A model generated the notes under the pieces. The model was not told the origin of the DNA and did no database searches. It was given only the letters and a program-made list of their open reading frames with translations. A stretch of DNA of 64,000 nucleotides from Rhizophagus irregularis (lineage: Eukaryota; Glomeromycota; Glomeromycetes; Glomerales; Glomeraceae). The first letter of the stretch is position 1, and each line of letters opens with the position of its first letter. A program made the translations under genes and the position numbers. Where the stretch lies: NCBI RefSeq assembly GCF_026210795.1, contig NC_089444.1:3958501-4022500 (forward strand), written 5' to 3'. Of this stretch, positions 11,079 to 50,849 are shown piece after piece.

Positions 11079-11095
11079 TATTTTTTTAAACTTTT

Positions 11096-11570
11096 TTTTT
11101 AGTTTAATTAACCATTTTCTTATACTCTTCTACCCTTCTTTTTCCTTTCTCCTCTCACACTTTCCCTTCACCCACTTCACCCTTTTTTACGCTTTCTTTT
11201 TTCTTTTTTCTTCTTTTTCACCTTTCGTTTCATTTCATTTTTTTCCATTTTTTTCATTTTCCCCTTCATTTTATCTCGTTTATTTCATTATTGTCATTTA
11301 TTTCTTTTTTCTTGTTCATTTTTTTTATTTTGCATTTTTTTTACTCATTTTTGGTTATTTATTTCCTTTTTTATCTCTTTCCGTTTTTCCGTCTTTCTAG
11401 CCACCTTTATTTTAAATGATACCGTCTTTCCCTTTCCCCTTTTTCATTCTTTCCTTTTTCCTATTTCCTCTATTTTTCCCTTTTCCTTTTTTTGTTTTAC
11501 CTTTCTCTCCCTCTCTATCGTCTTTCTTCTCTTTCACACTTCTCTTTCACTTAAATTAAACGCTTTTCAC
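11096..11570 (+). repeat. Pyrimidine tract (C/T-rich) ahead of the array
   Basis: Almost all C and T for about 470 bp, mostly TTTCC, CCCTTTT and CTCTC runs without strict periodicity. Similar tracts precede or interrupt the other arrays (21318-21570, 42580-42715, 46085-46209). Purine-rich reading frames on the other strand here (Lys/Glu/Arg-rich) are composition artefacts. Confidence 0.7.
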
Positions 11571-12360
11571 AACATGAAAAAAATTATAAATTTGGTCACG
11601 TTTTTGTTTTGGTAGATCTCTTGTGAAAAATGTTTTTCGTCTATAGTACTAATCTTTTTTTTTAGGTTTTGTCTCATTTTGACCTTCGGATGCCTGGGAA
11701 CTTGTTTCTTTTTAGATGGTCAAAAAACACGTTAAAATTCAGTAGGAAAGGAAGGGGAGAATGTATTCATTGATGAAATATTTTCTGGATTTCATTTTTG
11801 GATTTAGCTCAGGATTTAGGTAAAAGTTCATTTCTTTTACTTTTTTTAGTTCTTTCAGGTCAGACGTTAGTGAATTTTTTTTTAAATATTTATTTTAACG
11901 AAACTTCTTGTAGGTTCTAGTTTCAACTTTTGGCGTTAGACTGGTAAGTCTCAAAGTTGTAACTTTGAAACTTAATTTTTTTATTTTTATATAATGAGAA
12001 ACGTCAACTCACGTTTTTCTTTATTTTTGTAGGTTGTGGACTTTTGATTGAATGGGAAAGTGAAAACAGTAATTTTCGCAATACCTATTACAGGACTTGA
12101 TTTATTTTATTTTATTAGAAAGAAACGCTTTCTAACGCATCTTACATTTTCAGATATGGTAAATTCCATAATTTACAAGATTTGCTAATATATTTTTTTA
12201 TTTGAAACGTTTTCTAACGTTTTTCCTTTTTCATTTTTGTAGGTGTTTGGATTTCATTGGGTACTGGCTGATATGATCAGTTTCGAAGGTACTATTCGAA
12301 ACTTTTTTTAAATTTATCTCTTTTAGCAAACTTTAATTAATGTTTATTTTTATTTTATAG
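11570..12360 (+). other. Micro-exon / hairpin mini-intron array 1
   Basis: A run of GT-AG introns separated by short exons. Two introns are especially clear. Intron 11944-12032 (89 nt) has stem 11951-11958 with 11961-11968 next to the donor and stem 11999-12004 with 12011-12016 before the acceptor. Intron 12159-12242 (84 nt) has stem 12159-12165 with 12170-12176, which includes the donor GT itself, and stem 12205-12211 with 12216-12222 around TTCTAAC. Acceptors follow T-rich runs ending TTTTTGTAG. The micro-exons give no long conserved reading frame, so the product may be a non-coding RNA or a fast-evolving peptide. Copied in inverse orientation at about 24389-25190. Confidence 0.6.
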
Positions 12361-13096
12361 ACTCTTAATTGCTTTTTGGATGGAAAGTTTTATTTTTTGT
12401 CTTTTATTATTAATGAAACATTACTCTGTTTTTATTTGGCTTTAGACGATAGGTTTGGATGGGAGTTTATTGTAGAATTTTTGATTTTTTTAGTCTTTTT
12501 TTCTTTCATATTATTAAGTACTAATAAAATGATGTATTTGCTAAATAAAAGTGATTAGTGACATTATAGTTAAAAATCAATATATCATATAATTATCAAA
12601 TGAATATATTTTGATATTTATTGTTTAAGGTTATAGTCCGATAATTATTTGTTTGGTTAAATATCAATGATTATCATTTAAGTTTAAATATGATAATTTA
12701 TCACTGTTTATCCCTATCGATATTACTCAACGAGTCCGATTAATATCGATGTATGTCATGTGACCTTTTCATCGACATATCCCCTAGAAAAATTTCCCGA
12801 TGAAGTCATTAAATAGTGACAAAAAAAATTTTCTGGAAAAACTCCTAAAAAATCAGACCATGTGATAAGCGTAGGATAATATCTGCCAGTTAATAGGCAA
12901 TGAAAACTACTATTTTTTAAACTCATTTTTTTGCACACATGACTTCATACAATTCTGGATAAATATAATTATCTTAATAATATCTTAATAATAGAATTAA
13001 AATAATAAAAGCCAGGTATTATCTGAGTGATACGAAAAGGTATTGCTGTATTGGCATCCCTACAGACCTATTCAATTTATAAAACACTCACCACTC

Positions 13097-14757: not shown

Positions 14758-14761
14758 TTAA
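14758..14761. other. Left TTAA target-site duplication
   Basis: TTAA flanks the transposon here and at 19171-19174. The unoccupied homologous site at 50252-50255 has a single TTAA in matching flanks (ATGATATCATGATTAAGTTT), which fixes both element ends to the base. Confidence 0.9.
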
Positions 14762-20907: not shown

Positions 20908-22138
20908 CATCAGGAAATTTTTTTAGAGGAAAAATATCGATAATTATCACTTCATCGATATTTATCACATTTTATTATACCGAATAAATCGATAATTAAC
21001 ACATATTGATAAATAACTAGGAATATATAATGATATTTAACTATAACATATTTTATCTGAAAAAATCATAAGGTTAATTACCAATAATTTGTGATGTAAT
21101 AATTATTGATAATAATCTTTGTAATCTCATGGTTAATTTCTGATAATTTGTAATATTGATAATTTATTGATAATATTTAGTTGGATTTTATAATTAAAAA
21201 AAAAATATTAAAAGTAAGTTACGAAAAAGAGGTAACGGTTCTTTATTTAACAATCACGTGTATCATATCATGTGACACAACATCTCGTTGGTTAAACTAC
21301 TAGTAAGACGCAAACTTTTTTTTTAACTAAACATTTTTTACGCCCTTTCCCATTTCCCTTCCCCTCTCACCTGTTTCTCTTTCGCACCACTTTATCCTTT
21401 TTTATACTTTTCTTTTTCTTTCGTTTTCACCATTTGTTTCATTTCATTTTTTTCCATTTTTTTCATTTTGGCTCTCCTCTGTTTTTCCCTTCCCTTTTTT
21501 CGTTCCGTTTAGTCCCCTCTCCCTCTTCCTCTCTTTCATTCTTCTCTTTCAACCTTCCCTTTAATTTAAACACTTTTCTTAAAAAATTATAAATTTTTTT
21601 TTGTTACGTTTTCATTTCAGCGGTTTCCTTGTAGAAATGTAAGTAAATTTTTGGGATTTTAAACTTATTTTTTTCGCATTTAGTACTAATCTTCCTTTTT
21701 TTTATAGATTTTATCTTCATTTCAGCTTTCAGACGTTTGGGAATTCGCGTTTCTGTTTAGAAGGCCAAAAAATGTGTTGAAATTCGGCATTTTTTTCTTT
21801 GGAATTTTTCTTTTTTTTTTAGACGATTTTCTGGATTTATTTGGACGCGTGAGTCTCTTCGGTTTTTTGACTCAGGATTTTGGTAAGACACTAATTTTTT
21901 TATTAATTTTTTTTATTTTTAACGAACTTTACTAAAAGTTCTTTTTTAGGCGGTTCTTCGGCTCTTCAACAAGGAGATTTTGGTAAGACTATTATGATGA
22001 TATTTTTTCTTTCTTTATTTCTTTAACAAAAGTTAACATTCATTTTTTCTTCTTTCTTTAGGCGTTTCTTTCGGTCTTGAAAAGGAGATTAGTGTGTTTA
22101 ATTTTTTTTCGACTTGGGATTTTGGTAGGCTAATTATT
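20908..22138 (+). mobile_element. Second array-bearing element, truncated by the palindrome junction
   Basis: Left end CATCAGGAAATTTTTTTAGA, TATCGATAATTATCAC motifs, CACGTG (21255-21260) with CATGTGAC (21269-21276), a pyrimidine tract (21318-21570) and a micro-exon array (21600-22138) follow the same order as 10516-12802. The insertion point is visible because 52407 and the inverted 40.5-kb copy read straight through AAAATTTAATA|CTGT where this copy has the element. The array is cut at 22138, where the right arm of the inverted repeat begins, so the palindrome junction formed within this element or deleted its end. Confidence 0.65.
21600..22138 (+). other. Micro-exon / hairpin mini-intron array 4 (truncated)
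   Basis: Exons such as GCGGTTCTTCGGCTCTTCAA (about 21951-21983) are followed by GTAAGA donors and preceded by CTTTTTTAG-type acceptors. The intron before that exon has a perfect 7-bp stem (21924-21930 with 21935-21941) whose loop is ACTA, giving an ACTAAA branch-like motif. The stem GAACTTT/AAAGTTC differs from the GAAACGTT/AACGTTTC stems of other introns yet is fully paired. Confidence 0.55.
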
Positions 22139-22679
22139 ATTACATGTACAGTGTCATAATTATGTAGTATAATTACAAAAAAAGTTAAAAAAGTTCGTAT
22201 TAAAAAAATTTGAACAAACTGTAGTAATTACACAAACTACTTAAATTACACAATCATTATATATTTCACTTTTTTTAAGCCATATGAAAATTCTTAAAAT
22301 AGTCAAGCTAAAGGCTTACATTAATTACAAATAAGGCTTATATATTATGGCTTATTAAATCTAGATCATCACATGAATTTAGTTTTACTAAATACTATCG
22401 TAAAATTTGTGGCTTTGATCACAATACTCAATACCTTTATGGGTTTTTCCGATACCCAACTTTTTTTAAGCCCCATAATGAATAATCAAGCTAAAGGCTT
22501 ACATTATAACAAATAAGGCTTAGATATGTATGGCTTAGTTAATCTTAATTATCAGATCATCACATGGATTAGTTTGATTTAATATGATAATAACGATATT
22601 GTATAAGGCAAAATTTGTGGTTTGATCATCAATCTTATAAATACCTCTTGATTTTTCTTTTCTCACATTTTTATAATTT

Positions 22680-23652: not shown

Positions 23653-23946
23653 GAGTGGTGAGTGTTTTATAAATTGAATAGGTCTGTAGGGATGCCAATA
23701 CAGCAATACCTTTTCGTATCACTCAGATAATACCTGGCTTTTATTATTTTAATTCTATTATTAAGATATTATTAAGATAATTATATTTATCCAGAATTGT
23801 ATGAAGTCATGTGTGCAAAAAAATGAGTTTAAAAAATAGTAGTTTTCATTGCCTATTAACTGGCAGATATTATCCTACGCTTATCACATGGTCTGATTTT
23901 TTAGGAGTTTTTCCAGAAAATTTTTTTTGTCACTATTTAATGACTT

Positions 23947-26233: not shown

Positions 26234-26299
26234 TATATAAAATTAGTTACGCCACTTTAATTTATCCGTCACGGAGAAATAACTGACGGTCATTATTGA

Positions 26300-26646
26300 A
26301 TTACGATTTTCTACATCACACGCATTCAACACGTAACCTGGGCATTTTTAAAATATTGTAACCCATACGCAATTACGTTCAAGTTAGAATTTCAATTTCA
26401 AATTGAAATTTTCGATTTGAATGTACAATTTCCAAAATGTGATCATATCCCAAACCAAATTTGGAGACATATTTAGTATTTGATTATCGCCTTGAACTTA
26501 TGGCTCAAATTTACCAGAAGGATGGAAAATCGCAAATTAAATTCAGAGTGGGCTACAACAGCATTTTGTTGACATTTGAGAAATTGAGAGTCAGAGAAAT
26601 TAAAGAAAATCAATCATTTTGTTTGTATTCATCCAAACGATGCTAA
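26300..26646 (+). pseudogene. Unidentified gene fragment, right arm copy
   Basis: Open segment with LETYLVFDYRLELMAQ and SQIKFRVGYNSILLTFEKLR, without a proper ATG, ending at a TAA at 26644. The copy near 56260 has stops and an interruption. No family recognised; likely a residual exon downstream of, and convergent with, membrane gene B. Confidence 0.4.
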
Positions 26647-26953
26647 AAAAAAAAATTTTTTTGAGAAACGAAAAAAAAGAATACAATTCTTATCAGTTAT
26701 GGCAGACGGCGCAGTCTAAAGTATTTTATTAGATTAATAATACTTAAAAAATTGAAATATTTACAATCTATTTACAAAATAATGTTCATTACTAGTATTC
26801 ATATCATTCTATGAATTGACACTTCATACTTCTGATTTAATGCTACTTTTAAAACCAGTAATAATAATAACTAGCGAAAGATATTTTTGCGGTGTACAAT
26901 CCCTATATTTTTTTTTGTCTAATTAGTAGAGGCAAGGTCTTTTTTTCTCTGTT

Positions 26954-29900
26954 TTAATTCCCAACATTTGACCTTATGGATCTTATGGAAGCGGCGGATA
27001 AACGTCGATTTTTATTATATTCTTCAATTTTATCGCGTCGATGATTCCATCTTATCAACGCATGATATGATCTTAAAATTAATTTATTTAATATAACTAA
27101 TCCACCAGATGCAATCGCAAGTGATGGAATAAGATCATATGTTATCACACTATTGTAATATAGCCCTTGGATAATGATTTGAGGTACATCTTCAATAAAG
27201 ATGTTTATGATACTACCCCAAAGCATTATTTTTTTTGATCTTTGAGTCAAAGGAATCGAAAATATTTTAAGGCCAAATAAATCCGATGATAAAGTGCTTA
27301 ATATTTGTATATCAATGGCTGAAAATAATGTGCACATTGATGATAATGCCAGAGACTCTTTAATCCATTTAGAGAACAAAGGATTTGTTGCCATTTCAGA
27401 TACAAAAATATTTATGGCAAATAAAATATTTATTACAATAGGTAAAATAAAGAATATCATACTAAATAATAATAAATAAGAAAATTAGTAATCAATTAAA
27501 TTAATCTTCAAAATAATATAAATAAAATAACATTAATGAATTTCTTACGTTGGGATTTTTAAATGTGGTGTATTATTAACTTTTAATAATACAAATGCTA
27601 AATCCACAGCAAAATCTTGTATTATAAACCAGGTATCAAATATTACAGAGTTTTTTGCCTCAGGATTTTTTAGACGAGCCAAAATATATAATATTATTAA
27701 TACAACTAAACCTACTATAAATATTATAATCAATGAACGATATTCTTCAAAATAATTTCCTGTAAAGTAATAGAATTAAAATTTAATAAAATATTAATCA
27801 AATACAAATGTCAAAAATATTTAATGAACACACTTACGGGTCATTATAAATGGTGCACTTTCATCAATTAAAGATGTATATTCATTAGATGAAAGTGCAG
27901 TAAACCTTTTTTGTTTGATCAAGGTTCTTAAAATTTCAAATATTGTTTGGGAGTTTGGTTCAATTATATGATCATCTTTAGCTTCATTTATTTTAAATGT
28001 TAATAATATTTTTTTTGGAGAAGTAGTGTCATATTTCCATATACCACTTGTCGATATCCTCTGTTCAGTTACTGGAATTGTTTTAGAAAATTCTCGAATC
28101 ATACTCTTAAAAAATACTGAATGATTTGTTTGGAGAAATTTCAAACTTCCTTCTTCATTTAACCGAAGTAATCCAGTAACTGAATTTGAATGTTGTACTG
28201 GCGTATTAAGTGGTTCTAATAAATAAAGTAACAGACAGATAGAATATAAATTTTTCAATTCGATTATTTAAAAATTTTAAAAAAAAGATGTATATATTAC
28301 CTGTTGAAAATGTCCAAATATTCTTTTTGATAATTCCTATTAAAGGTTCATCTCTCTCTTGAGAGATGACAAAATTATTATCAACCAACACATAATAGGA
28401 GGAGTTTGGTTGACTAAATGTACTTTCGAAAATTGGGATATGCACTGTATAGTTGTCACTTCCAACAGTACATAGTTTATGATCTCCCGAAAATGTTTGT
28501 CTTAATAGATCTGGTTTACTGGGATCATCACTTTGTTGAAATATTGAAACATTCGCAGTAGATAACTTTACTGGAATGGTATATTTGATCATTATTTCTT
28601 TAATCAAAGGATCAACAACTTCATTAATAGCTGGCTTTGTTGTTTCAATTACAGGACAACCATATTCAGTACCTACAGATATTAAAAAGAAAATATTAAA
28701 TAAATATATATATATATACCCTATAAAAAATTTTTCAGAAAAATGACCCTGTATTTGAGTTTCTTTGGAATAAAAACTAGAAAATTTTTTTATAGAATGT
28801 AAAGAAAGAAAAGCTTACTTCGATTATTTAATCTTGGTATAGATTTTAATAAAAACTCTAGTTTATTGTTATTCTGATTCTTTATTCCAACAATAGTATT
28901 ATTTATATGAAATGTATTAAAATGAAAGAACTCTGGTCCAAAAGATTCCCATAATTGCGTATAATTACCATTATCATCTAAAAGATAAAAATCCATTGTA
29001 CTGTGAATATGCTCCATAAGAAATCCTCCATAATATAAAATTTCAAAATCAATGTCCGTATTACTATTTGTTGGATTAGAAATTCTATTTAATTGTTCTA
29101 AGGCCCCAGTTGATAAAAATCTCAACTGATAGTAATTTATCTCAGTCCGGGATTTACTATTCTTCTTATTTATGACTGTATTATTTAATGCCATAATACA
29201 TACATATCCTTCGGCATTATAAGTCACAGTACATGAATTAATTGTTATATTATTTAATCTTTTAGTGGTTTGGTAAACCAGATAAGGTATTGTGGGGGAA
29301 TCTGTACCTTCTCTTAGAAAAGATACATATACTCTCCAGTATTGAAGATTTGGATCTGATCCTTTTGCTTCATTATATTTTAAAATATATATAAAACCAA
29401 ACCCTCCATCTATTAATAAAAAATTTAAACTATCAACTAAGGTATATGATAATAGATTTGGTGCATGAAATTCACCATTTTTATGTCCCACTACTTCTCC
29501 TGTTATAATATCTCTAAAATAAGGTGAAAAAGTTAATTGACTAAACAATAAAATATTTTCAAAAAAAAAAACTAATTGTCATTCATAAAAATACTTACGG
29601 ATTGCTAAACCAATGCCATGCTGCTATTCCTTCTTTATCTGGTTTTTCAATACTAATAAACCCTTTATATGGTACTATGCTACGTTCAACAAATCCATTA
29701 GCATTTCCTAAATATATTTCACTAAAAAAATGTTATTATTAAATCACTATTATTGACTTTCATTAATGAGAATTTCCATCATTCAAACTTACTTTATAGA
29801 CTCATTCCTGTAATTAATTATTATGCCATATTTTCCCTTAACACCATTGTTTGATTTAACATAAACTATCATTACATGATTATCAGTTAAGGATAAAATA

Positions 29901-30268
29901 TCCATATTAATGGGACAAATTGCTTCCACAGGAAGAGTGTAATTAAAATCCATATATTCTATTTTTCCTGTTTTATCCATCAATCGTAAATGTAAATAAG
30001 GTAACATGCATGCTGGATCTTTATCTTCAAAGGCCATCCAAATTATCAAAGAACCATCTAAACTATAGGAGTAAGTATTATATAATTTTAACCCATTAAT
30101 TGGTTCTTCATAAATAAATGATATATCTTGGGTTGATATATCTTGAAGGGATGTAGTTTGAGATGATGAAATATTTTGAGAAGAAGATAGTACGTTTTGA
30201 GATGAAGCAAAAAAGCAACAGATGGATAATAAACAGACAAAGGTGATCAACATCTTTGAATTGAACAT
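26954..30268 (-). CDS. Multi-pass membrane protein, copy B (identical to copy A)
   Basis: Exons 29793-30268, 29599-29721, 28819-29513, 28301-28672, 27838-28215, 27549-27759 and 26954-27461 join to the same 920-aa protein as copy A: signal peptide, N-glycosylated ectodomain of about 660 residues, then about five membrane segments. Every exon reads identically to copy A, so the two genes have had no time to diverge or have been homogenised. The TATA-like box is at about 30397-30406 and the leader repeat is kept. With copy C this gives three intact genes in 60 kb, so gene dosage may vary between strains if the palindrome is unstable. Confidence 0.85.
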
Positions 30269-30408
30269 TTTTACTAAGAGACTTGAAAAATGATAATGAT
30301 AATTGATAAATTTTTTATTTGGGAGATAGACTTGAAAAATGATAATGATAATTGATAATTTTTTTACTTGAGAGATTACAGCAGAACAACAGAACATTTA
30401 TATATATT

Positions 30409-32633
30409 TCTCATCATTATAATCTAAATTTATTTATTAACTATTAATAACTTTTCTTTTTATCAAACATGTTTCAAAAAAAAAATTATAATCAAATGTG
30501 TTTCAAAAAAAAAGCATTTCTATTACTATACTACCAAATTTGTATTTCAAAAACTGATCTGCGTTGCTTTATTAACATGTAAAAAAACGTGGTGATCAAT
30601 ATCACACGGTCTTCATTTTTTTTATCCGCAAAGAATTTTTTTTACAGAAGCTTTCATTAGTATAATACATTAATTTTAACTATAAAAACTGTGAAAATAT
30701 ATTATAGAAATTTGAATTAGTTCATTAATAGTTAGTAATTAGTAGTTAATTAGTAATTTAAATGGAAAAATTAATTGTTATCTTTAAAAGTAATTTGAAA
30801 CCTAGTATTTGGTATTGCACATGCATTTGGTATCAAAGGAGTTGTAAAACGTCCATTGCCTTGTACAAATAAATTTTGGAAGCAATTAAAGCATAAGCAT
30901 GAACTTAAACATATAGTAATAAAATATTAAATTTATTAAATTTATTAAAATTTATCATAATTTTGGTGATAAAATTATGATATCACTGCTGGCAGAAAAT
31001 TTTGACATTTTGGTGTATTACTCTATGATCATTGGATGCAAAATGGTGCAATAAATAAGCCAATTTGCTGACATTTTGACATATTATTCCTCATCTATTG
31101 TACCTGGAGATATGAAACCATTACCATTTGTGAGACGACTCTAGTGAAGCAGAACAGTATTGCAAGGGAATGGAAGGATATTCATGAAATAAAGTTTATG
31201 TCTTAATTTAGCGTAAAACAATGGGAGCGAGGTAACACAGCATAAAAAATAGAACAATTTTAACACGATACATTCCTATTGTCATGATCACCGGTTAAAC
31301 CGATCTATTTTAAGATAACAATCCGTACTACGGAGACATGACATGCTACACGTAACATGTTACAGTCGTTACATTCGTTACAATACACTTAAACTTATAC
31401 AGGGTAATATAAATATATAATAATTTACTTATTCCTGTTTTTCCGTGTTTTTTTATTCCATGTTATTTCCGTAAATGTATCATATTCACGGAGTTTATAG
31501 CCTCAAACATGAAAATTATCCAAGTTACTTAAATTATTTTCTCATAAATGTATCATTTTCACGGAGTTTTTCAGAAATTACGTTTTACAAAGGTTAGTTT
31601 AATTAGTATTTCAATTTAACTTATAATTATGAATAATAGTTAATTTTCTATTACTATTAAAAATTAATTATATTTTATTCCTATTACTTTATTATTACTG
31701 TCCAAAAAGAATTTAATTACTAGTATTTAAAAAATTTATAAAATAATTATATTAATAATTAAAATTGATGAACTGCAATAAATATTATATATATATATAT
31801 ACTACAATTAGTACAATATGTAAAATCCATTATCTATATACCGAACAATCTCTCGCTTTCATGAAAGAATATGAAAATGAGGATAAAGAAAGTGAAGAGG
31901 AGAAAAAGAAAATTATTCTCTTAATACTGTGACTTGAAATCGACTAGTCAATCGTGCATTCAAATTAGCAATATCACTGTAATTACTGCGGTTATCATAC
32001 TTTTTAATAAAAACATAAATGTTTTTAGACTTTATATTCCAAATTTTTCGAGTATGACGTCTTAGCACGTGCTTTGCATTTCATATGAGAAAGATAGCAT
32101 AATCACGCCAAAGTAAAAATCAAGTTATGTTATTTCTACTAAAATATATGTGAAATATCAACAGTTAAAAACTATCGTTATTTCTACTAAAATATATGTG
32201 AAATATTTACTCAATTATCTAAACGTGATAACAACGAATTCAAAGTGAATTTCAGTTTGACTAGATTATTAGTATAGTTAATGTAATATTTGAGTTTTTA
32301 CGATACTGATAATAAGCTTGTAAGGTAATTATTGTTCTTGAGATTTTCTGCATTATATCTTTATATAATTTACTAGGGGATATTAAGAAATGATAACAAT
32401 GATAACATTAAAATGATAGAATAAAAAAAATAAATAAATAAATATAAATAGATCTCTTAAGTAATTATTTTAACAATTTGCCACTGATAAAAGAATAACA
32501 TTATGAATTTTCATTATATTTAATTTTTAATTTTTTGAATATCACATTTTAATAAAAAGAATCCGATAGACAATACTATACGTAAAAAACTCCGGCTACG
32601 TGTTATATGGTACCACTGCTTCGAATTACTTCG
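30409..32633. other. Intergenic region, right arm
   Basis: Mirror of 4113-6337 including both short direct repeats. No gene is seen. Confidence 0.6.
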
Positions 32634-35600
32634 AATTATCTAGCCCATTCTAAAAACCTTTCAAAAGCTGTATCTTCATTTTATATTTTTCTTGTCTTAC
32701 TTTCCGTTTCAAAAATTAACATACGCCATAATTTCTTTCTTTACAAATAGCTCGGATTCCTCATCTAAAGTCTGTATATGAATCAAAGAATATAAAAAAT
32801 CAATGATTTGGCTTATTAATTACTCTTTGATATTTAGTGCAAATAGTAATCAACATACCATCATCATTTCTTTGATTAAGTCTTCAGCTGGCTTTTTATT
32901 ACTACATAAATGATCAATAACAAAAGAGAATAATTCATCTTCTTGTACGCCGAGATATTCAACAATTTTTTTTATTTACAAATGGCTGTAACTTTTTGCT
33001 AAGAACATTCTGTTGTGAAATAATTATTATTTATGTTAATAAAAACAAAGATTTTTTTAAAAAAAGGAAGAAAATTTTGAACCACATATGAAACTTACCT
33101 CATCTAATTCTTCCTATTTAACATTCCGTTGATATAGTTGCCACTATTAAATTCTTAACTAATTTTCTTTTTCCTTTCTTCGGCTCTCTATATTTCAAAG
33201 GCGACATTTACGTTTTGATTCAATACCTTATTAATCGTCAAATTCCTCATCTTCAGCTAGGGCCATAAATGCCGCGCGACGTTTTGATGCAAGATTAAGA
33301 GTTAGTTCTGGTTTAACGCTATTATTTTGTGAAGCACCAATTGTGGCAAGCGTTAAAATATCTTTTTCATTATTTAATTCTGCTTCCATAGCTTCTCGAG
33401 TGTTTGTAATCGATGTTGCTCAAGCACAATTTCTTGCTGTTCTCAACCTATCTATCTGCCTCATCCATAGCCAATTCACGTACTCTGTTGTCGATGGAAC
33501 CACCAACAAGATCTACATAAATTATAAAAAAGTTAAAATTCATAATTTCTCCGTTAAATTGATTACAAGATGAAATGTAGAATAAACCTCCTGTATTTGT
33601 AATAATATTCTTCTTGACCGCTATCAGCTTCAATGTCATCGCCCCATTCCGCTAAACTTTCTCGTCCATTATTTGCCGATCTCGAATTTGTTTTTCTCTA
33701 ACATCTAAATCTCGTTCTGCTTCACGTTCACGATTTGTTGCCATTGTTTCTTCTCTATGTTGCCATCTTCTTTCTCTAATATAAGATAATTATTATTAAA
33801 ATCAGTATATAAAATCCAAAAACAAAATATTAAATAATTTAATATACCCCTTTAAAAGCAATTTCCATTTCAGTTTTTCTTTTAGCTTGTCTGCGTTGTT
33901 CCTCTTCTTTATCTCTAAAATATAAGATTTGCGTCTTGATTCTCTTGCAGGAACAAAATTTACTGGTTGATGATAATGTCCATATTACTGATCTCGATCT
34001 CTATAGCGTTAGCGATCCCGCTCTCTCTCTCACACGTTCCTTCTCTCTATTTTCCCTTCCATGTGAACGTTCTCTTTCTTTTTCAGCTTTAGCTCTACGA
34101 TTTGCTCGTTCTTCCTCTTCTCTCTAACGCTCTCGCAGCACGTTCTCGAAAGAATACTATTTCTCGGTAAATAACGAAGATCCTTTTGATCTGGAGAGAA
34201 GATCAGCCGGTAAATCTGTGTCATCATCCTTTTCTCCATGTTCTGTTTATTTCTGTAGCTGGTGATGTTCAATGAGCTAGTTTATTTTCATGCTGTGAAT
34301 TTATTGAAGGTTGTAGATCTCTTCTATCCTGTGGCTTAGTCATGTCTTCAACAACGTGATAACAAGGCATTTTATCTAACTCTGTATCATGCTGAAAGAC
34401 AATAATTGACATCAATTATGATAGTAAAAAAAAGAAAGAAAAAAATTATTTCTATAGTTTAATACAGACCACCGTTCCCGGTCTTGAAGCCTCATATTGA
34501 GCAATATATCATTTTCTTGTAGTTTCATCGGCTTTAACCTATAATTGTGTGGATAAAATGGTATTTAGTAGATGAAAAATTAGGATCAAAAGTAAATCAA
34601 GAAGTTGATTACTTACTATTAACTTTTTTATCCTTCACCACCAAGTACACGCAAAGCACGTAGTACACTGTCTATCAGCATCAGCATATTCCGCAAATTC
34701 AAAAACCTTTGGATTTCCGGATTGGTCTTTAACTCGTTTCGAAGATTTTAATGTACCACAAGTCTTTGCAATCGCCAGATAAGCAAATCAAAAAAAAAAA
34801 CAAAAATAAATTGTCAGCTAAAGTATTTGATAAAATCATACCGGAAGATGTTCATGAGTGCGCCCAATAAGCGCATTAAAGCTTTCAAGACTAAGATAAA
34901 TTCGAAAGCTATCTGAGAAAAAAAATTTTAGCATCCAAAATAATATGCGTTTTAGGTCGTAAGAAAATTATACAAAAGTTTTTTCTTAATCGCACCTCCA
35001 AATATTTACGCCTTCTTTTAAAGCTCCAGGGTTCATAAAAATCCAATTTGATAATATAGTGTTCATTAAAATCTTCATCCCTTCGATTGGAAAATCATCG
35101 TCAACTTATTGACAAGTATCGATATATAGCATTCATTTGCCCACCATAAAATTAAATAATTGATCACTACCTTGAGAATTTTTTCATCAGTTACTCCCGG
35201 TGATATCTCTCCAATGAAAAGAGTTGTCAATTTTGCCATTGGTGATATACCGCCCAAAGGTATACCATAACCTGGTCTAGATAAGCTGTGCGTTGTGTGG
35301 GAGTACCAGAAGTATAGCCACCCCGCGAGGTTTGTCCATTAAATTAGATTATATCAAATAATTAAATTAAGAGGTTGTTTAAATATTATCTATAATGGTA
35401 TTAATTTTTTACTATCCTTAATTCTTATTATATAATTTTAGGTAAGAGGACCGCCTGGTGAAGTAAAAGGTGGTCGTTCGTAAGGTCGATATTGAGCTGT
35501 GAAATAACAGTAAGTAAAATGTTTTAAATATAAATTTTTTTTTTGAAAATTATTCTCGTATAAAATTATCTCTTCATCATCAGAATCTCTATTTTTATCC

Positions 35601-41300: not shown

Positions 41301-43210
41301 ATGTCAAAGCAAAAAGAATACTCAGTTTCACTTATTTCTGCAGGAGAATTTATAGACAACTTGCATTATGGACCACTCAAATCCAAGAACACATACAATC
41401 CGATTTTCATACCGAATTGGAAGAGTTGAAAGGGTATTTGTTGTATTATTTAGTTTTTGTGTAGGCTATTATATTTTTGATCTGATTTCTACTTGGATAT
41501 TTTTTTTTATAGGTTTGATTTCGACTTTTGATTTATTTCTTATAGGTAGTACGTTTTAGGATTTTATTTTGCGGACATCTTTTCGGTTCAGAATTTCTTT
41601 TCTTGTAGGTTTCTTTCTTTCGAATTTTTTTTTATTGTGTAGAATTCTTCATTCTGCTCGGACTTGATTTTTTTTCTTTTTTTTTTTGTAGGTAGCCTCG
41701 GTCCTTGGATTTTTCTTTTGTAGGTTCCTTCGATTCGAGCCTTTGAACCTTTCTTCTTGGTCCCGAGGGCTCGATGGTAAAGTATACAATTCAATCATAA
41801 GCCAGGTGTAGGCTCGACTCCTGCTTGGAGAACTTTGATCGTTTGTTGCTCTGACTTTAATTAGAACTTGGGCTTTGGGTTTTCTTTTGTAGTACTTCGA
41901 TTCGAACTTGGGCTTTGGATTTTCTTTAAATTTTTTTTTTTATTTTAACGAAACGTTAACTAACGTTTCATTTTCTTTCTTTTTTTTCTAGACGGTCAGG
42001 CAGAACGCGAAGAGTTCGGTAGGGGTTTCGGCAAACTTTTATTACTTTTATTAAATCTTGCAATGAAACATTTTTAACATTTCGTTTTTTGTCTTGTAGG
42101 TAGTAGGTACTCCAATTTTTTTTCGGTTTCAATTTATGGACAGAATAGATGATTTTCGATCGAAATGAAACTCTATTTGATTTTGTTATTAACATTTCAC
42201 AATTTTTTTGTAGATTATTTGGCTGGTAAATGAAACTCAATATTAAAATTTTTTTGTAGATCTTTCGGCTTAGTTTATGTTTAGACGGATTCGAATTTTG
42301 GAAATTATAGGTTTTGAAGTGAAGTCTTCGAAACTTTTTACTAACGTTTCTTTTTTTTTAAGTCTTGGTGTCGATCTAGGGGTTTGAGTTCGGTAAGAAC
42401 GTTGTGAAACAATTTTTTGGGGTTTTTTTTTGACATTAGAAACATTTTTTAACGTTTCTTTTCTTTTCATGGACACTAGCCTAGCCTTAGAAATGACCTG
42501 CTGGTAAGTCCATTGGGAAGGGTTTTTTTGACATTGGCTTGAAGAAACGTACTAACGTTTCTTTTTTCTTTATTTTTTTCCTTCACCGTTCTCAACCTTC
42601 TCTCTCGCTCTTCCCACCTTACCCTTCTCACCTTTCCTCTCACTCTTCTTTCTCTCTTCCTCTTTACCCCTTCCTCTCTCTCTCTTATTTTCCCCGACCT
42701 TTCTTCTCTTACTTTTGTAGGGCGGAATTTCTTCATAAGTTTATTTATTATTATTAATTTTGGTTTTTTAATTTTTTTTTTATTTATCTTTCATTTTGTA
42801 CAGTTATCGACAGATTTGTACTTCCTAGATCGTATTGGTAGGTTTTGTAGCGTTTCACTTCGAAACTTTTTTAAAGTTTTTTTTTTATATTACTATTCAG
42901 TTTAATTTTTTTTATTAATTTGTTTTTAACATTTTTGTAGGTTTCTACTTCATTGAACTTACTAGATCTTGAATGATAAGTAAGTTAAGAAACGGTTCGG
43001 GTTGAAACTTTTTTTCAAAGTTTTTTTTTTAACACCTCTTTTCTATTTTGTAGATATATTTTTCATTTTTAGGTCGGACTTGGACGAATTTGACTCGGAA
43101 ATTTTTTATAGATTTCGTGAATTTTGGGAAGATAATCTTTAAGAAACATTTCATTAATGTTTCTTTTTATTTTTAGGTTTCGGCATCTTTTGGAACGGAT
43201 GATGATATTT
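41301..43210 (+). other. Micro-exon / hairpin mini-intron array 2
   Basis: A possible first exon begins ATG at 41301 (MSKQKEYSVSLISAGEFIDN...) and stays open for about 40 codons before donor-like sites near 41435. Then at least ten acceptors (T-rich, ending TTTTGTAG or TTTTTAG) and GTAAG/GTAAA donors follow, with a pyrimidine tract at 42580-42715 inside the array. Hairpins around the branch-like motif: 41950-41957 with 41962-41969; 42544-42550 with 42555-42561; 43143-43150 with 43156-43163. The last has A-T where the first has G-C at the same stem position. Reading frames across the exons are not evident. Confidence 0.5.
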
Positions 43211-43804
43211 TTATATCAAAGACGATTTTTAACGTGCGTGTGGACCGAATTTTGATTATATTAGATAGTTGCTATAAACATGCAGATATTTAAAGTGTTT
43301 AATAAATTCAGATTTGTAACTAATATTAAAGCCAAATTAATAAATACTGAAACTAAATTTGGGTCGTCTTTAGACCATAATTTGACATAAAGTTTTGTGT
43401 CGAATATATTACTAATATTAGGTTGAATAAAAGAACGAATAATGACCAAATAATTAGTTTGAATATCAGTCATTATAAATTTTTTAAAAAAATTAAAAAA
43501 TTGTTGTGATTCCAACTAATTTACTGCCACCACATCACGCGAAGCTTCAGATTTTAGAAAAGTTGAAAGTTTGAATTTGTGGAATAATGAAAAAAAAGCA
43601 ATTAATATAAATATTTCATAACTGAAACTAACTTTTTATTAATTGGATAATTGCTATTGATGCTAATGTTGATCCAAAATTCTTTCAAGAAACTATTTTT
43701 TTTTATTCAATTTACAATGATTGGATGCACATTCGTTGTAATAAGTCACGTGATCAAACAACACATGACTATTCGATTAAAAAATTTTTTTGTTTAAATA
43801 TTAC
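43211..43804. other. Spacer between arrays
   Basis: An open frame on the minus strand (43261-43515, 84 codons) has a plain hydrophobic composition and no recognisable motif; I do not call it a gene. CACGTG occurs at 43747-43752. Confidence 0.4.
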
Positions 43805-44045
43805 CTACAAAAAAATACAAATAAAAAAAAGTTAAAACCGTTTTTAATAAAGAAAAAAAATAAAAAAATAAAAATAAAATTTTCGAAGTTTTTATTATAT
43901 TAAAGAAATAGATCATTATACCTTCATGTCTAAGGGATTTGAGGGACCGACCACCTAAAAAAAAAGGAAACGTTAATGATCATTTCGTTAAAAAAAGATG
44001 AATTTTTTTTTAAAAAAAACCTGATATCTACCTTGAGATCCATTG
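43805..44045 (-). other. Short micro-exon array on the minus strand
   Basis: Reading the minus strand: exon ending AATGGATCTCAAG followed by GTAGATATC, a T-rich intron with GAAATGATCATTAACGTTTC, an acceptor TTTTTTTTTAG, then exon GTGGTCGGTCCCTCAAATCC ending GACATGAAG with donor GTATAATG. This is the same grammar as the plus-strand arrays, in opposite orientation and next to the oxygenase gene. Confidence 0.45.
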
Positions 44046-44266: not shown

Positions 44267-45574
44267 TTATTTTTTCTTTTTCTTTTTATTTTTTTGATTA
44301 ACATTTGATTTTCTTTTTTTTTGATTATTATTATTGTTGTTATTTATATGAATAAAAGATTCAGGAAATAAATCATTATGTGTGAAAAATACTAATGAAT
44401 GCCTAACACCAGAACATGGAAGATTTCCATGTACTAATAAATTAGACCTAAATGCTAAAATATTTCCAGGTTTTAATTTTATACGTATATTAAGTTGTGG
44501 AAATATTAAATCACCACCTTTCCATTCACCTAATGGTACAAGCCAACAAAAACCATATTTATCATCATCACGATCTATATGACATCCACAGATAGTATTG
44601 AAATTTACAGCACACATTCCGAATACCTTAAATAATTTTTTAACCTAGGAATTTATAATAAACCAAAAATTAAGTATTTAATTTATGAAAATAATGATAT
44701 TTTTTAATTATTTACCTGCGGTGGAAAGCAAAGATTACTTAAATTTCTATACATTGATGGATAATAAAATTCCATTATATTTGCGATATAATCTGCCACC
44801 TCATTAATTTCATATAGCATTTTGTCAACGCAACTATTAAATATTATAAAATAGTAATGTTTAAAATGCCAAATTATTATAAAAAAAATCAAATAAAAAT
44901 GAATAAAAACATACCAAGAATGATTAAAATATTCATCATTCTTAACTTTACACATATAATCCTGGGATTGGTATACAAATTTATTATTGCTTCGAAAAAT
45001 CCCAAAGTGCTGTGTAAAGGGTTGTGTTCCTGAATCTGATAGAACTTTTGATTAGTTTAATTAATTTAACGAAATAAAACATAAGTAATAATCATGTATT
45101 TTACCTTGAGATTCGTAATTAAAACCTTTAAATTTTGGTGGAGCATGGTTGAAATCATTGTGAATATGAGTCCAATATGTTTGAACAGCATGATCTGCAT
45201 TTACAATCAGCTGCTCTTTTTCTTTTGGAACTTCAAATAGACGAAATAAAGTTGCTTTGTTCTCATCTATACAATGATAATTACCTAAATAGTATGATGG
45301 TTAATTTAATATAACAAATTCAAATACAAATTTAATTAATATATATACCTTCAATTGTTTTAAAATTAGATAAATCATAATGCATAGAAATAGAATCCAC
45401 CGTTTTAAGATCTTTATTTTTTTCTCCAATCTGATTTATAACAACTGGTGGATATTCTTTTAAATCCAAATTGATATCATTTGGATTGTTTTCTTTATAT
45501 TCTTTATATTCTTTATATAACAGGTTATGCATACCCAGTAAATAGTTTTCGTATAAATTTATACAATATATCAT
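44267..45574 (-). CDS. 2-oxoglutarate/Fe(II) oxygenase, TET/JBP-like fold, intact
   Basis: Exons 45349-45574, 45105-45284, 44915-45035, 44716-44833 and 44267-44644 join in frame with GT-AG borders to a 340-aa protein. The last exon holds the double-stranded beta-helix core: the iron ligands His-x-Asp in CGCHIDRDDDKYGFCWLVPL, GEWKGGDLIFPQL, PGNILAFRSNLLVHGN with the distal His, and GVRHSLVFFTHN with the Arg expected to bind 2-oxoglutarate. This pattern resembles the single-domain fungal oxygenases related to TET/JBP, some of which oxidise 5-methylcytosine; in fungi such genes are often linked to transposons. A different substrate (protein or RNA) is possible. The N-terminal 200 residues are unassigned. 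The C-terminus is an Asn run followed by a Lys-rich tail (nuclear targeting possible). It sits between two micro-exon arrays. Confidence 0.85.
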
Positions 45575-45990
45575 TATTTTGTATTAAATTTATGCCGATC
45601 CAAATCACATTAATAAAATGATTTTACTAAATCGCGTTAAATTTGTACTAAAATCGATATTTAAAAATGAAATCATACCAAATTTATAATACATATTTAT
45701 TTAAAATATTTTCAAAAATAAATTCCATATAAATTTACATATATTTCAATTATATATTCCGTATAAAATCATTTGACCATAATTTATACAAATTTTGTAT
45801 AAAATTTGTATTACTCCTTCTCTGCACTTAAGAAACTTCCTTGTTCTTTTTTACATGATTGACATTTACATTTTACTTTTATTTTTATTTTTATTTTTAC
45901 ATTATTTAAAATTTTTACATTATTCATATTAATTTAAAAATATAAAAAAAAAAATTTCGGGCCCCCCATTTATATATAAAATTATGTATC
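45575..45990. other. AT-rich upstream region of the oxygenase and array 3
   Basis: Repeated AAATTTGTATAAAATTT-like and ACATTTAC motifs and a run of TTTTTA units near 45878-45900. TATATATAAA at 45971-45980 and TATCACGTGATA at 45994-46005 could serve array 3 on the plus strand. The region is a divergent intergenic space that may hold promoters for both directions. Confidence 0.4.
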
Positions 45991-46019
45991 ACGTATCACG
46001 TGATATTACATTAATAATT

Positions 46020-46086
46020 ACCGCAGCTTCAGCTGCGGTATAGCGAAAAAAAAAATTAAGCTTTTTTGGCAAAGCTTAATTTTTTT
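46020..46086 (+). repeat. Two adjacent strong hairpins before array 3
   Basis: Stem 1: ACCGCAGCT (46020-46028) pairs perfectly with AGCTGCGGT (46031-46039), 2-nt loop. Stem 2: AAATTAAGCTT pairs with AAGCTTAATTT around a loop of about 8 nt (about 46053-46083), followed by a T run. GC-rich stem followed by a second stem and poly-T is notable in such AT-rich DNA; it could be a transcript-end or leader structure or a palindrome of mobile origin. Confidence 0.65.
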
Positions 46087-46208
46087 TCTCTCTTTCACCT
46101 TTTGCTTCCCCTCTCTTTCCTTTCGCCTCCCCTCTCTTTCACCCTTTCCCCTTCCCTCACTCCTATCCCTTCTTCCTCTTTTTTCCACCCCTTCCCCTTC
46201 CCTTCTTT

Positions 46209-47830
46209 CAGAAAATAAAATGGTAAGTTTTGAAGCATTCACTTCAAAACTTTTATTTTTTAAAAAAATTAACTTTTTAGGAAACATTTACTAACGTTTC
46301 CTTTGTTTTTTTTTTGTAGTGGAAGCTAGTTTGGGAGCTTGAAATGGTGAGTTTAACTTAAATTATATATTTTTTTATTAGAAACGTTCTAACTGAACAT
46401 TTCTTTCTTTTTTGTAGGTTTGGTTTCTGGGAATTTAGAAATTCAGAAAACAGTAAGTTTTGTACATTTCACTACAAAACTTCCATTTTTTCTTTTTCTT
46501 TTCTTTAAGAAACGTTCTAACTGAACGTTTCCTTTCTTTTTTGTAGGTCTTTTTAGGCGGTTCTCTTGGTCTCCTTAAACACGAATTTGGTAAAGTATTC
46601 AATTTTTTTTTACTATTTTTGTTTTAACGAAAAATTTCTAACAGTTCGTTATTTCTTTTATCTAGGCGGTTTTCTTTCTGGTGGGTAATTTTTTTTCATT
46701 AATTAATTTAATGAACTCTATTAATGGTTCATTTTTATCTTAGATTTTGCCGATTCTTATCTTTCTTTTTTAGGTATTGCCGATTTTCTGGGTGAGTGTG
46801 CAATTTTATTTTCATTTTATCTATTTGTCTTCACTACTAACAATCAATCTTTCTTCTTTAGGTTTCATTATTTCTTTTTTTATATTTCAATGTCTCTTTT
46901 ATGGAAATAAAGGTGGGTTTTTTATTGTTCGTTTTTTTTTTTGTCATCTTTGATACTAAACTATTAAACTTTCTTTTTTTAGATTTGTCTTCGTTCCACC
47001 CTTCAAATGCATGGGATTTTGGTAAGAAATCGGACAATATTTTTGTTTCTATATATTTCTTTAATGAAACATATACTAACGTTTCAGTTTTTTCTTCTTT
47101 TAGAAGACCAAGTCTTTGAACGCGTAAAAACTCGGTAGGGTGGAGGGATTTTTTTTGAACTATTCTTTGAGAAACATTTATTAACGTTTCTTTCTCCTTT
47201 TTTAGGTAACCTATTCTTTGAACTTCCGAATGTGGATTTTGGTGGGCATTTTTTTCTTAACTATTTATTTTAATGAAACGTTTTCTAACGTTTCAATTTT
47301 TTCTTCTTTTAGATGGTTCTTCTGGTCTCTCTGGATGCGGCATTTTGGTAAGATTGTCATTTTTTTCTTGAAACTTTTATTTTGACGAACATTTTCTAAC
47401 TGTTCTCTTTTGCTTTTTAGACAGTTCTCCAACTCTTTGGACGCGGAACTTTGGTGGGAGTAATATTTTTTTGTTTTATTCCGTCTTTTATTCTGTCTTT
47501 TATTCTGTCTTTTAAAAACAGTTGCTAATTTATTTATTTTCTTTTTTTTAGCAGCTTAGAAACATATCTTAGTGAGAAATCGACTTTCAGTTAGACACAT
47601 GAGATAGGTAAGTTTGGAAAAAAAGGAATTCGAAACTTTGAAAAAGGTTTTTTTTAATATTTTTCTTTTTTTTTTGTAGAGAAGTTAGTTCCAGCTTGGA
47701 AACCAAAATCCCAAGTAAGTTTCGAAAAAGGAATTCGAAACTTTAGAAATAAGATTTTTTTTAACCTTTTTTTTTTTAGGCATCAAATGCTTCTTTAGAT
47801 GGATTTATACAGGATGTGAACTTTCGTATA
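46209..47830 (+). other. Micro-exon / hairpin mini-intron array 3 (best example)
   Basis: At least a dozen exon-intron units after a pyrimidine tract (46085-46209). Clear exons: 46320-46346 (27 nt), 46418-46452 (35 nt), 46547-46589 (43 nt). Clear introns: 46223-46319, 46347-46417 and 46453-46546 (71-97 nt). Intron 46453-46546 has a 9-bp stem at the donor (46455-46463 with 46474-46482) and a 9-bp stem around CTAAC (46509-46517 with 46523-46531). Intron 46223-46319 has a 10-bp donor stem (46225-46234 with 46243-46252). Later branch-region stems: 46710-46716 with 46727-46733, 47274-47282 with 47287-47295, 47387-47391 with 47401-47405; donor stem 47717-47724 with 47736-47743. Exons are related to each other (for example GGTTCTTCTGGTCTCT, GGTTCTCTTGGTCTCCTT, AGTTCTCCAACTCTTTGG), so the array grew by duplication of exon-intron units. 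No stable reading frame seen. Confidence 0.65.
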
Positions 47831-48193: not shown

Positions 48194-48639
48194 TTATTGA
48201 CTTTTTTTAATAGTTTTTTTGTATATATGTTCCTGGTGTAATGATAATGCTGGCTGTGAGGGCTGTGATGATGATGACGATGCTTCTGGGTGATACTGCT
48301 CCTGATAATCGACAAATCCAAATTTATCTGCATGTTTTAATAATATATCATTTAATTTATTTTTAAAGGAGGAAAATAAATTTCTACTTTTCCTTTCCTT
48401 ATTTTTCACATAAGAATAATTCTCAGATGTTGATAATCTATTGGATATATTATTAACTGATACATACACTTCATCAATATATTTATTATATTCATATAGG
48501 ACTACTTTATGTAATTTGGAATTATGAGTAATGACTGCAAAAACGTAGGCGGTATGATATTTTCAACAAGATCAACAATATTTTTTGTTAGTTTATCAAT
48601 GTCTTTGTGGAATTTTTTTGATTTATTATTGATGGTGGT

Positions 48640-48780
48640 AGTGGTGGTTGTGCTGTTGCTGCTAGTGGTGGTAGTAGTGGTGGCAGTGGTGGTACTGCTT
48701 GTACTGTTGCTGCTAGTGGTGGTGGTGGTGGTGGCAGTGGTGGTACTGCTTGTGCTGTTGCTGCTTGTGGTGATGTTATT
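48640..48780 (-). repeat. Trinucleotide-rich Ser/Asn/Thr repeat block
   Basis: Repeats of the peptide TTSSNSTSSTTTAT and (T)n, encoded by ACC/ACT/AGC/AAC codons. Three peptide units here versus one in the arm copies, so the block has expanded or contracted since the copies separated. Confidence 0.7.
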
Positions 48781-48886
48781 TTTTAATTTTATTAATTTAG
48801 AATTAATTTCCTCCTCCAAATTCTGAACTTTGGAGCTAAATTCTTTTAATTTATTAAAGGTCTCAAAGTCAACAACATCATCAATC

Positions 48887-49127
48887 TGGAAATTGTAGCT
48901 AAAAACGTCCGGAAAATGTTTATTTGTCTGGAATATGTCCGGAATATTGCAATATTCCGGACGTTGGAAAATTTCCATTTTCCGGAAAATGTCCAGAAAA
49001 TGTCTAGGAGGGTTCAGACCCAGCGTCCAGAAAGTGTCCGGAATATTGCAATTTTCTGGACGTTTTCCGGACACACGGACATTTTCCGGATGTTTTAGCT
49101 ACAATTTCCGGACATTTTTTTTTACAG
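48887..49127. mobile_element. Foldback element with TCCGGA repeats inside the coiled-coil gene
   Basis: The ends are inverted: GGAAATTGTAGCTAAAAACG on the left and TTTTAGCTACAATTTCC on the right, the right end continuing GGACATTTTTTTTTACAGGG, a relative of TATAGGG ends. The inside is packed with GTCCGGAA/TTCCGGAC palindromes. On the minus strand it begins GTAAAA and ends TTTCCAG, so it could in principle be spliced, but the flanking frames would not match. Confidence 0.65.
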
Positions 49128-49583
49128 GGCTGATGAATCCTTATATAACTTAAAATCATCATCATTTAATTTTCTTGTATTCCCCTGGGTAAATAATGTC
49201 TCTCTCAATGTTCTAGAAATTGTAGGCTTTATATTATTAAGAAAAGAAATAATTAGTTACATTCAATTTAATTGTTTGATACTATTACATTAATCCATTT
49301 TTAAAAATATATTATGTTTTTGAATAATACTACTTGTCTATAAATAACTTGGACTTCAAAGTATTACTCTCCACACCGAGAAAATATAGGATACAAAGCT
49401 CCATGTATCTTCCCATAAATAGATTTTTAAAAATGATGTTAAAAACAATGAATTAAAAAATATAAATACTGTAAAAGTTTGTTCATTGCTGTTATCTCTA
49501 ACAACAACTCTAGCAACTTGTGCACTTCTTGTTGTGCTTGGACTTACGAATTGTTGTGATCTAGATAAGCAGCTCATTATCAT

Positions 49584-50849
49584 AAATTATAAAAATGTGA
49601 TTAAAAAAAAAAGAAAAAAAAAGAAAAATCAAGAGATCAGTGAAAGTATTTATATACAATATCGTATTAAATCAAACTAATTCATGTGATGATCTTGATA
49701 ATTAAGAAATAACTAAGCCATACATATCTAAGCCTTATTTGCGATTAATGTAAGCCTTTAACTTGATTATTCATTATGGGGCTTAAAAAAAGTTGGGTAT
49801 TGGAAAAACTCATAAAAGTATTGAGTATTGTGATCAAAGCCACAAATTTTACAATAGTAATAAAACTAATTCATGTGATGATCCAGATTTAATAAGCCAT
49901 ATATAAGCCTTATTTGTAATTAATGTAAGCCTTTAGCTTGACTATTTTAAGAATTTTCGTATGGCTTAAAAAAGTGAAATATACAGTATAATGATTGTGT
50001 AATTTAAGTAGTTTGTGTAAATTTCAGTTTGTTCAGATTTTTTTTAATACGAACTTTTTTAACTTTTTTGTAATTATACTACATAATTATGACACTGTAC
50101 ATGTAATTATTTGCTTAACAATTTCATTATTTATTTATTATACAAGTATTATTATAAAATAAGACAGTTTACTAAAAGAAAATATAAAAAAAGTAACATT
50201 TCTTAGTAAATGATATTTTTTAAACATATCAAAGATATGATGATATCATGATTAAGTTTGGAAGTAAATTTGCGATTTTTACGTTAATTTTGATTAAAAA
50301 ATTAACGTAAAAAAAATTAAAAGCAAATTCTACCGTACATCGGATGATCAGAAACCAACATATAATCATAATATCAGTAAATACAATATATAAAATAAAC
50401 TAGGATGCAAGAATTTATATTGGCAGTTGAACCATAGTCTCTAGAGTTAAACTATCAATAATGACCGCCTACACGGATCATTTCAGCTCCATAAAAATTT
50501 TTTAGAAAATTGATCATATGTCTGAGTTCTTCTAGTAGAGTAAAAAACTAGAAAAATAATTATATTTTTTATTGCTTAGTTCATAGTTTGAGAATGCTTT
50601 GATGTTAAATTTAAACGAATCAGGTAAAATAATTTATTTGAAGTAGTTTATTATTTTATTAATAATGAATGGTTTTCTTGTCTAATTTTATTCAATAAAA
50701 TTAATCAGTTTTTTCGAAAATAGTCAGAGTATTATTTAATAAATTTAAGTTAGTATTTAAAAAATTTTATTAACTCAGGTTTAATATTATTCTTGTTCTT
50801 GAGATTCGAGACATTTAAAGATTTTTTTCTAGAAATATTCCGTCTGTTG
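49584..50849. other. Module tail, third copy, with unoccupied TTAA site
   Basis: Matches 14070-14757 and then 19175-19890 without the 4.4-kb transposon. The AAGCC repeats are at 49713-49975. The empty target TTAA is at 50252-50255 in ATGATATCATGATTAAGTTT. No gene seen; the plus-strand frame at 49486-49680 is antisense to exon 1 of the coiled-coil gene. Confidence 0.75.

Follow-up and report, generated by a model that had tools for sequence, protein, structure and literature searches.

The DNA at 46076-47830 raises the question of whether a run of very short exons and introns, many of them with hairpins at their splice signals, is a spliced gene, and if so of what kind. We consider it probable that this region is a spliced gene of micro-exons, noncoding or fast-decaying coding, whose mini-introns make use of local hairpins. 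Computation directly gave the chain of introns, the hairpins themselves and, for the array, a stronger pairing of cognate than of swapped arms; that the introns are spliced out and that their hairpins work at the level of the pre-mRNA is what we infer.

The window, by which we mean the whole 64-kb stretch of DNA analysed and to which all comparisons between loci are confined, is AT-rich (GC 22.6-33.2 % in 2-kb steps) and includes intron-containing genes. The protein sequences resemble those of Glomeromycotina such as Rhizophagus, and the DNA probably belongs to the nucleus of an arbuscular-mycorrhiza-like fungus. The micro-exon array with introns at 46223-47779 is referred to as E46 and the related loci as A11, B21, C41 and D42 (Table 1). 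The Tet_JBP match of the oxygenase gene, at 44270-44644 (-), has a Pfam E-value of 2.3e-8 and 33.9 bits, below the cut-off of 34.9; six other window proteins gave a single Pfam match, also below cut-off, and one window protein had no relative in viral contigs. The tRNA search found none, no Rfam match in the window reached gathering level and the seven Rfam matches within 45.9-48.0 kb were every one far under their own gathering scores, and a known RNA (tRNA, Rfam) was rejected as an identity for the array, there being no match.

An inverted duplication of 12.6 kb and 98.8 % identity joins 2060-14610 and 22136-34701, and a further diverged block is also present; the duplication may reflect either a palindrome of recent origin or an error of assembly. 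Over the 1380 aligned columns compared around A11, the two copies differ at one position. Block copies at 13102-14761, 48407-50255 and 22139-23647 are mutually related, and since the related block lies approximately 0.6 kb downstream of A11 and E46 and immediately adjoins B21, the arrays may have moved along with it.

The intron chain of E46 and its hairpins

By inspection, 14 introns were read in E46, and a splice-chain search returned the same set except for the ends of intron 5. The model of this first search had been trained partly on E46 itself; an independent splice model was trained on eight introns from the protein genes of the window only. At a threshold of 12 the independent model gave one chain of 14 introns, 46223-47779, with a score of 64.2, which was reached by 0/300 local Markov-2 nulls (best 26.3) and 0/10 whole-window nulls (best 20.9). 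At a threshold of 10 the array alone scored 92.2 (nulls 0/300, best 41.3), and over the whole window the chain extended past the array to 48053 with 16 introns and a score of 94.6 (best whole-window null 46.1). The multi-intron array described in the first-pass annotation is therefore borne out, the chain being far beyond chance. With their GT-AG ends, branch consensus, pyrimidine tract and place in such a chain, the introns, which range from 59 to 98 nt, would on sequence grounds be U2-type spliceosomal introns; intron 7 has no branch motif under the rule used for the fold and arm-swap tests. Since the other loci were at null level with the independent model at a threshold of 12 (A11 18.2, D42 17.7, B21 15.3 and C41 outside the six best), E46 is intact and the others are eroded or poorly modelled. 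With the E46-trained model A11, its inverted copy and D42 stood out, and no chain was found in six nulls.

Table 1. Coordinates of the features of E46, of the related arrays and of the oxygenase gene in the window
Feature	Position	Strand	Remarks
Intron 1	46223..46319	+	5' hairpin 46225-46252 (11 bp); branch-site hairpin 46280-46301
Intron 2	46347..46417	+	branch-site hairpin 46381-46403
Intron 3	46453..46546	+	5' hairpin 46455-46482 (10 bp); branch-site hairpin 46509-46531 (9 bp)
Intron 4	46590..46665	+	branch-site hairpin 46625-46651, energetically weak (104/300 shuffles)
Intron 5	46685..46743 by reading	+	branch-site hairpin 46710-46733
Intron 5, alternative splice sites	46681-46773	+	from chain search
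Intron 6	46792..46861	+	without hairpin
Intron 7	46913..46982	+	without hairpin
Intron 8	47022..47103	+	branch-site hairpin 47065-47086
Intron 9	47135..47205	+	branch-site hairpin 47171-47190
Intron 10	47242..47312	+	branch-site hairpin 47274-47295; AAC of CTAAC paired
Intron 11	47348..47420	+	branch-site hairpin 47387-47405
Intron 12	47454..47551	+	neither hairpin type; different 5' fold (6/300)
Intron 13	47608..47679	+	5' hairpin 47610-47638 (28/300)
Intron 14	47715..47779	+	5' hairpin 47717-47743
13 internal micro-exons, between introns 1 and 14	46320..47714	+	15-56 nt, from chain search
Pyrimidine-rich leader	46076..46210	+	composition scan; probable core promoter or transcription start region (proposed role)
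ATCACGTG element	45995..46002	.	74 nt upstream of the E46 pyrimidine-rich leader
Array A11, with leader	11116..12460	+	near-identical inverted copy at ~24.4-25.6 kb (-)
Array B21, with leader	21441..22125	+	one branch-site hairpin; no 5' hairpin found
Array C41, eroded, without own leader	41461..42575	+	branch-site hairpins and one 5' hairpin
Array D42, with leader	42556..43176	+	related to E46
Tet_JBP-type 2OG oxygenase gene	44267-45583	-	four introns by reading; Pfam match at 44270-44644

It had been claimed that each intron carries two hairpins, but this is true of introns 1 and 3 only. By inspection, a branch-site hairpin is present in nine of the 14 introns (1-5 and 8-11) and a 5' splice-site hairpin in four (1, 3, 13 and 14), and three introns (6, 7 and 12) are without either. 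The significance of the folds was judged by dinucleotide shuffles, 300 per test, at a level of ≤15/300. The individual stems singled out at first were confirmed: the 5' stem of intron 1 has 11 bp beginning at intron position +3 (AAGUUUUGAAG/CUUCAAAACUU) and 0/300 shuffles were as stable, the 10-bp 5' stem of intron 3 was matched by 1/300, and the stem at 46509-46531, with nine perfect pairs and the loop UAACU, by 0/300. The second stem of intron 1, around CTAAC, is present but not significant alone (23/300).

A branch site was called in 12 E46 introns, and five of these had significant branch-site folds (introns 2, 3, 9, 10 and 11, with counts of 2, 0, 6, 0 and 14), while intron 8 gave 19 and intron 4 gave 104; the fold of intron 5 was left out, its ends in this test being those of the chain search. 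Significant 5' folds were found in four of the 14 introns, namely 1, 3, 14 (1/300) and 12, the last not being of the AAGTTT type; the count for intron 13 was 28. At the other loci 5/16 branch-site folds (D42 intron 4, 0/300; C41 intron 5, 5/300; B21 intron 3, with its branch motif misplaced, 7/300; A11 intron 5, 12/300; A11 intron 3, 13/300) and 2/25 5' folds (A11 intron 4, 0/300; C41 intron 3, 13/300) reached the same level, and not all of these are GAAAC/GTTTC or AAGTTT stems. None of the seven introns tested from protein genes of the window, in sets of four and three, reached ≤15/300 for either fold (the second set had four introns, one of which lacked a branch motif and was skipped in both tests). 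The contrast of 5/12 in E46 with 0/7 in the controls is a small one. In their predicted structures, eight of the nine branch-site hairpins of E46 leave the branch A free and that of intron 10 pairs it; the distance from this A to the intron end is 19-26 nt.

Pairing of cognate arms and compensatory change

In the arm-swap test the left arm of each intron was folded with every right arm, with 20000 permutations. For E46 it took in 13 of the 14 introns at the branch site, one without a branch motif being dropped, and all 14 at the 5' end; the introns were not picked for their hairpins, with the exception of intron 5, which was hand-set to its hairpin version. Cognate arms paired better than swapped arms both at the branch site (-4.91 vs -2.46 kcal/mol, 0/20000) and at the 5' end (-4.27 vs -2.02 kcal/mol, 0/20000), part of this signal coming from the presence or absence of whole hairpins. 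When duplex energies were used the counts were 0/20000 and 1/20000, respectively. The nine hairpin-selected introns of E46 still gave 3/20000, with the selection and one mis-set branch site as caveats. Pooled over all loci, the test gave 0 and 2/20000 for 29 branch sites, the 10 of 39 introns without a branch motif having been dropped, and 2 and 9/20000 for 39 5' ends. For the loci outside E46 alone it was not significant at either the branch site (1993 and 4579/20000) or the 5' end (1899 and 1942/20000).

Covariation was counted after the arms had been lined up by eye, with N in place of the loops. Over 19 rows the branch-site arms contained 12 cells with two-sided change compared with 4.8 in shuffles (0/500), and their covariation score was 0.246 compared with 0.120 (0/500), falling to ≤0.072 when the arms were slid. 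The number of pairs with two-sided change, for instance from A-U to C-G or from C-G to either A-U or U-A, was not above shuffles (4 vs 3.1, 186/500). Over nine rows the 5' arms contained four such cells compared with 1.1 (6/500), a score of 0.182 compared with 0.116 (3/500) and three pairs with two-sided change compared with 1.0 (15/500), one pair occurring as U-A, U-G and C-G. Kinship among the rows can lift such values above shuffles even without structure. RNAalifold recovered the 5' stem unaided, with two-sided change in 3/9 pairs; on an unaided MAFFT alignment of the branch-site regions it found no structure, probably because the loop lengths differ. Maintenance of the hairpins by paired changes is supported by these results.

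Exons, related loci and rival explanations

The internal exons of E46 measure 15-56 nt, and not just the 27-43 nt first reported. Their similarity to one another is real but partial: over the array loci 18/276 exon pairs are alike at ≤1/200 shuffles, where approximately 1 to 3 would be expected, the exon ends outside E46 having been placed partly by eye. Within E46 the alike pairs are E9-E10, E9-E12, E10-E11, E11-E12, E2-E14 and E3-E5; exons E2, E3 and E4, the neighbours of introns 1-3, have no mutual likeness at the ≤1/200 level. Exon E8 (46983-47021) is the homologue of 21708-21747 and 11666-11704, and is thus one exon in three loci. At the site of intron 8 in A11 (11666-11741) and B21 (21708-21800) only a short pyrimidine tract and AG were seen by eye, and the difference may represent loss or gain of an intron within the family, in either direction. 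The proposed duplication of whole exon-intron units is favoured by the likeness of adjacent introns, which exceeds that in random orders (7/5000 as high), and less clearly by that of adjacent exons (193/5000), but over all pairs the likeness of introns did not correlate significantly with that of their upstream exons (rho 0.15, 198/2000 permutations).

Hairpin introns occur at four loci besides E46, three of which share the pyrimidine-rich leader. When both strands of the 64 kb were scanned for stretches with ≥88 % C+T and ≥25 % C in 60 nt, seven were found, all at array loci (two each in A11 and its inverted copy, and one each in B21, D42 and E46). Copies of the ATCACGTG element also precede two other arrays, at 11004 and 21253, but since CACGTG occurs 11 times in the window its link to the arrays is only suggestive. 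The interval 46020-46093, between the CACGTG element and the leader of E46, contains two hairpins, one (CCGCAGCTTCAGCTGCGG) noticed by eye and the other a 23-nt stem with AAGCTT; Rfam matches there were only far below cut-off.

A model of the 5' hairpin (R1) had 11 hits at E<1e-4, all nine of its training sites plus two sites within A11's inverted copy. A model of the branch-site hairpin (R2) had 15 hits at E<0.01, of which eight were training sites, two were in the inverted copy, four more were in arrays and one was outside, at 43955-43989 (-), ahead of a possible 33-nt micro-exon. A possible small gene at 43754-44044 (-), outside the leader-bearing arrays, would read ATG GAT CTC AAG and continue with an intron that bears a branch-site hairpin (7/300), followed by this 33-nt micro-exon. 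Apart from this one possible locus at 43.9 kb, no spread into unrelated genes was seen in the 64 kb. A branch-site hairpin pattern matched 21 stretches of viral contigs once each, which was taken as chance, and a longer hairpin pattern had no matches in prokaryote genomes.

Does the gene encode a protein? It is quite possible that it does, as a micro-exon gene similar to fast-evolving secreted families, either functional or recently decayed, with alternative acceptors and exon skipping. Exons 5-8, with the splice sites of the chain search, are 15, 18, 51 and 39 nt long, all multiples of three within one open frame; the B21 exons of 60, 33 and 63 nt are jointly open in one phase, given a hand-set last donor; and where E8 differs from its B21 relative, seven of the 10 changes are at third, two at second and one at first codon positions. 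These features hint at past or present coding. Against it, only 7/13 internal exons are in threes, with exons 9, 11, 13 and 14 counting against coding, and the longest open stretch of the spliced E46 exons, 79 codons, is within chance, being matched by 920/3000 per-exon shuffles, 618/3000 whole shuffles and 1531/3000 exon-order permutations. The open frame of B21 is likewise at chance (1556 and 1169 of 3000). Furthermore, the 79-codon frame has an ATG only if two weak alternative acceptors are used, and has no match in Pfam or PDB. An isoform of 111 codons, requiring two alternative acceptors and the skipping of one exon, was discounted as selected post hoc. The RNA may be noncoding, the frames being no longer than chance, yet some exons hold one phase. 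On the opposite strand, a frame of 132 codons at 46858-47256 (-) is lysine-rich and of simple sequence.

The first-pass annotation had also suggested introns founded by the insertion of foldback elements, that is, an introner-like spread. This would fit the recurrence of the hairpin motifs across several loci and once outside, and by z the introns are more alike than the exons, although z also rises with length. We regard such an origin as unlikely, since near-identical introns in unrelated genes are what marks an introner and, in the 64 kb, 11/11 R1 hits and 14/15 R2 hits (training sites included) are inside array loci, with 43955-43989 (-) as the possible exception; the seven tested protein-gene introns are without hairpins, neighbouring units are related, the place of intron 8 in A11 and B21 appears by eye as an acceptor remnant and not a clean empty site, and common splicing signals suffice to make introns alike. 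That the palindromes act as DNA, either as dyad protein sites or as cruciforms, with their position at splice signals a coincidence, is improbable as well. G-U pairs are in no clear excess over C-A mismatches (12 vs 7), so that pairing as RNA rather than DNA is not established by them, but the fixed start of one palindrome at +3 of the 5' splice site, the location of the other around the branch motif with its A 19-26 nt from the intron end, and arms that vary with compensation instead of keeping a single sequence all speak against action as DNA. Chance folding of low-complexity DNA is disfavoured and very improbable: the DNA is indeed T-rich and simple, and several single hairpins are at chance level, yet the dinucleotide shuffles, the Markov nulls and the arm swaps are all contrary to it. 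A mirtron-like source of small RNA was rejected, as stems of 7-11 bp look too short.

Proposed mechanism and comparison with known systems

In the reading that we favour, a micro-exon gene spliced with the help of local hairpins, transcription of 46076-47830 would begin at the pyrimidine-rich leader, and the unit would consist of micro-exons with 14 spliceosomal introns, each 59-98 nt long, between them. Some of this unit would have been built by duplicating neighbouring exon-intron units. The unit would belong to a small family with four further loci in the window, one of them also present as an inverted copy. The branch-site hairpin is proposed to present CTAAC in or beside its loop, and since the branch A is unpaired in eight of nine predicted folds, the branch site would stand out among the decoys of a U-rich intron; most likely the structure helps to choose the true signals among such decoys. 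The 5' hairpin, spanning intron positions from +3, would compete with U1 snRNA, and introns 1, 3, 13 and 14 may therefore be removed more slowly or be spliced alternatively. The mature RNA would be noncoding or a fast-decaying micro-exon coding RNA. A bolder version, which we hold to be rather doubtful and put forward tentatively, is that the loci give rise to a family of micro-exon RNAs, mostly noncoding and interrupted by multiple introns, and that their mini-introns constitute a structured spliceosomal class, with 5'-gating and branch-presenting hairpins kept up by compensatory change while the exons drift, and with splicing order or exon choice set by structure.

Among the matches listed from the openly licensed literature, which mostly leaves out subscription papers, a comparable array was not recognised in titles and abstract openings. 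Aphid bicycle genes are known for their numerous short exons. The E46 family resembles them in being a multigene family with many very short exons (PMC9168663). The same likeness holds for the schistosome micro-exon genes, but these have long introns and encode secreted proteins, whereas E46 has mini-introns and may be noncoding (PMC10526429). The SP7-like effectors of Rhizophagus are likewise a Glomeromycotina family with tandem repeats; no instance of their repeat signature, Y[KR]Rx[AP]x[AP], was found when the array regions were read unspliced in three forward frames, where a motif split by an intron would escape (PMC11333574).

With respect to structure, intron folding has been probed mainly in long introns of yeast, and the study of the zipper and downstream stems of Saccharomyces cerevisiae had data for 81 long introns and 7 short ones, with linker lengths of 42-85 nt (PMC12350175). 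Compared with the introns studied there, those of E46 are all 59-98 nt. Like the zipper stem, the 5' hairpin of E46 lies between two signals, yet it begins at +3, in the stretch that pairs with U1; the other stem of E46 surrounds the branch site, whereas the downstream stem of yeast is beside it (PMC12350175). An intronic hairpin motif of approximately 60 bp in Aspergillus, proposed to shorten introns or to position the branch site, is also a fungal intronic hairpin, but the introns concerned average 183 bp and the E46 hairpins are approximately 20-30 nt in introns of 59-98 nt (PMC2467506). The stwintrons and introners of Hypoxylaceae/Xylariaceae share with E46 the related fungal introns and the short complementary elements near splice signals. 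They differ in that both ends of one intron pair together, in place of two separate local hairpins, and in that near-identical copies are found in different genes, whereas here they are almost confined to one locus group in the 64 kb (PMC12403724).

Set beside these systems, E46 represents a natural mutational series of very short introns carrying variants of two splice-signal hairpins, which would allow testing whether a branch site presented in a loop and a covered 5' splice site tune splicing, and the family may add a micro-exon gene family to the fungi.
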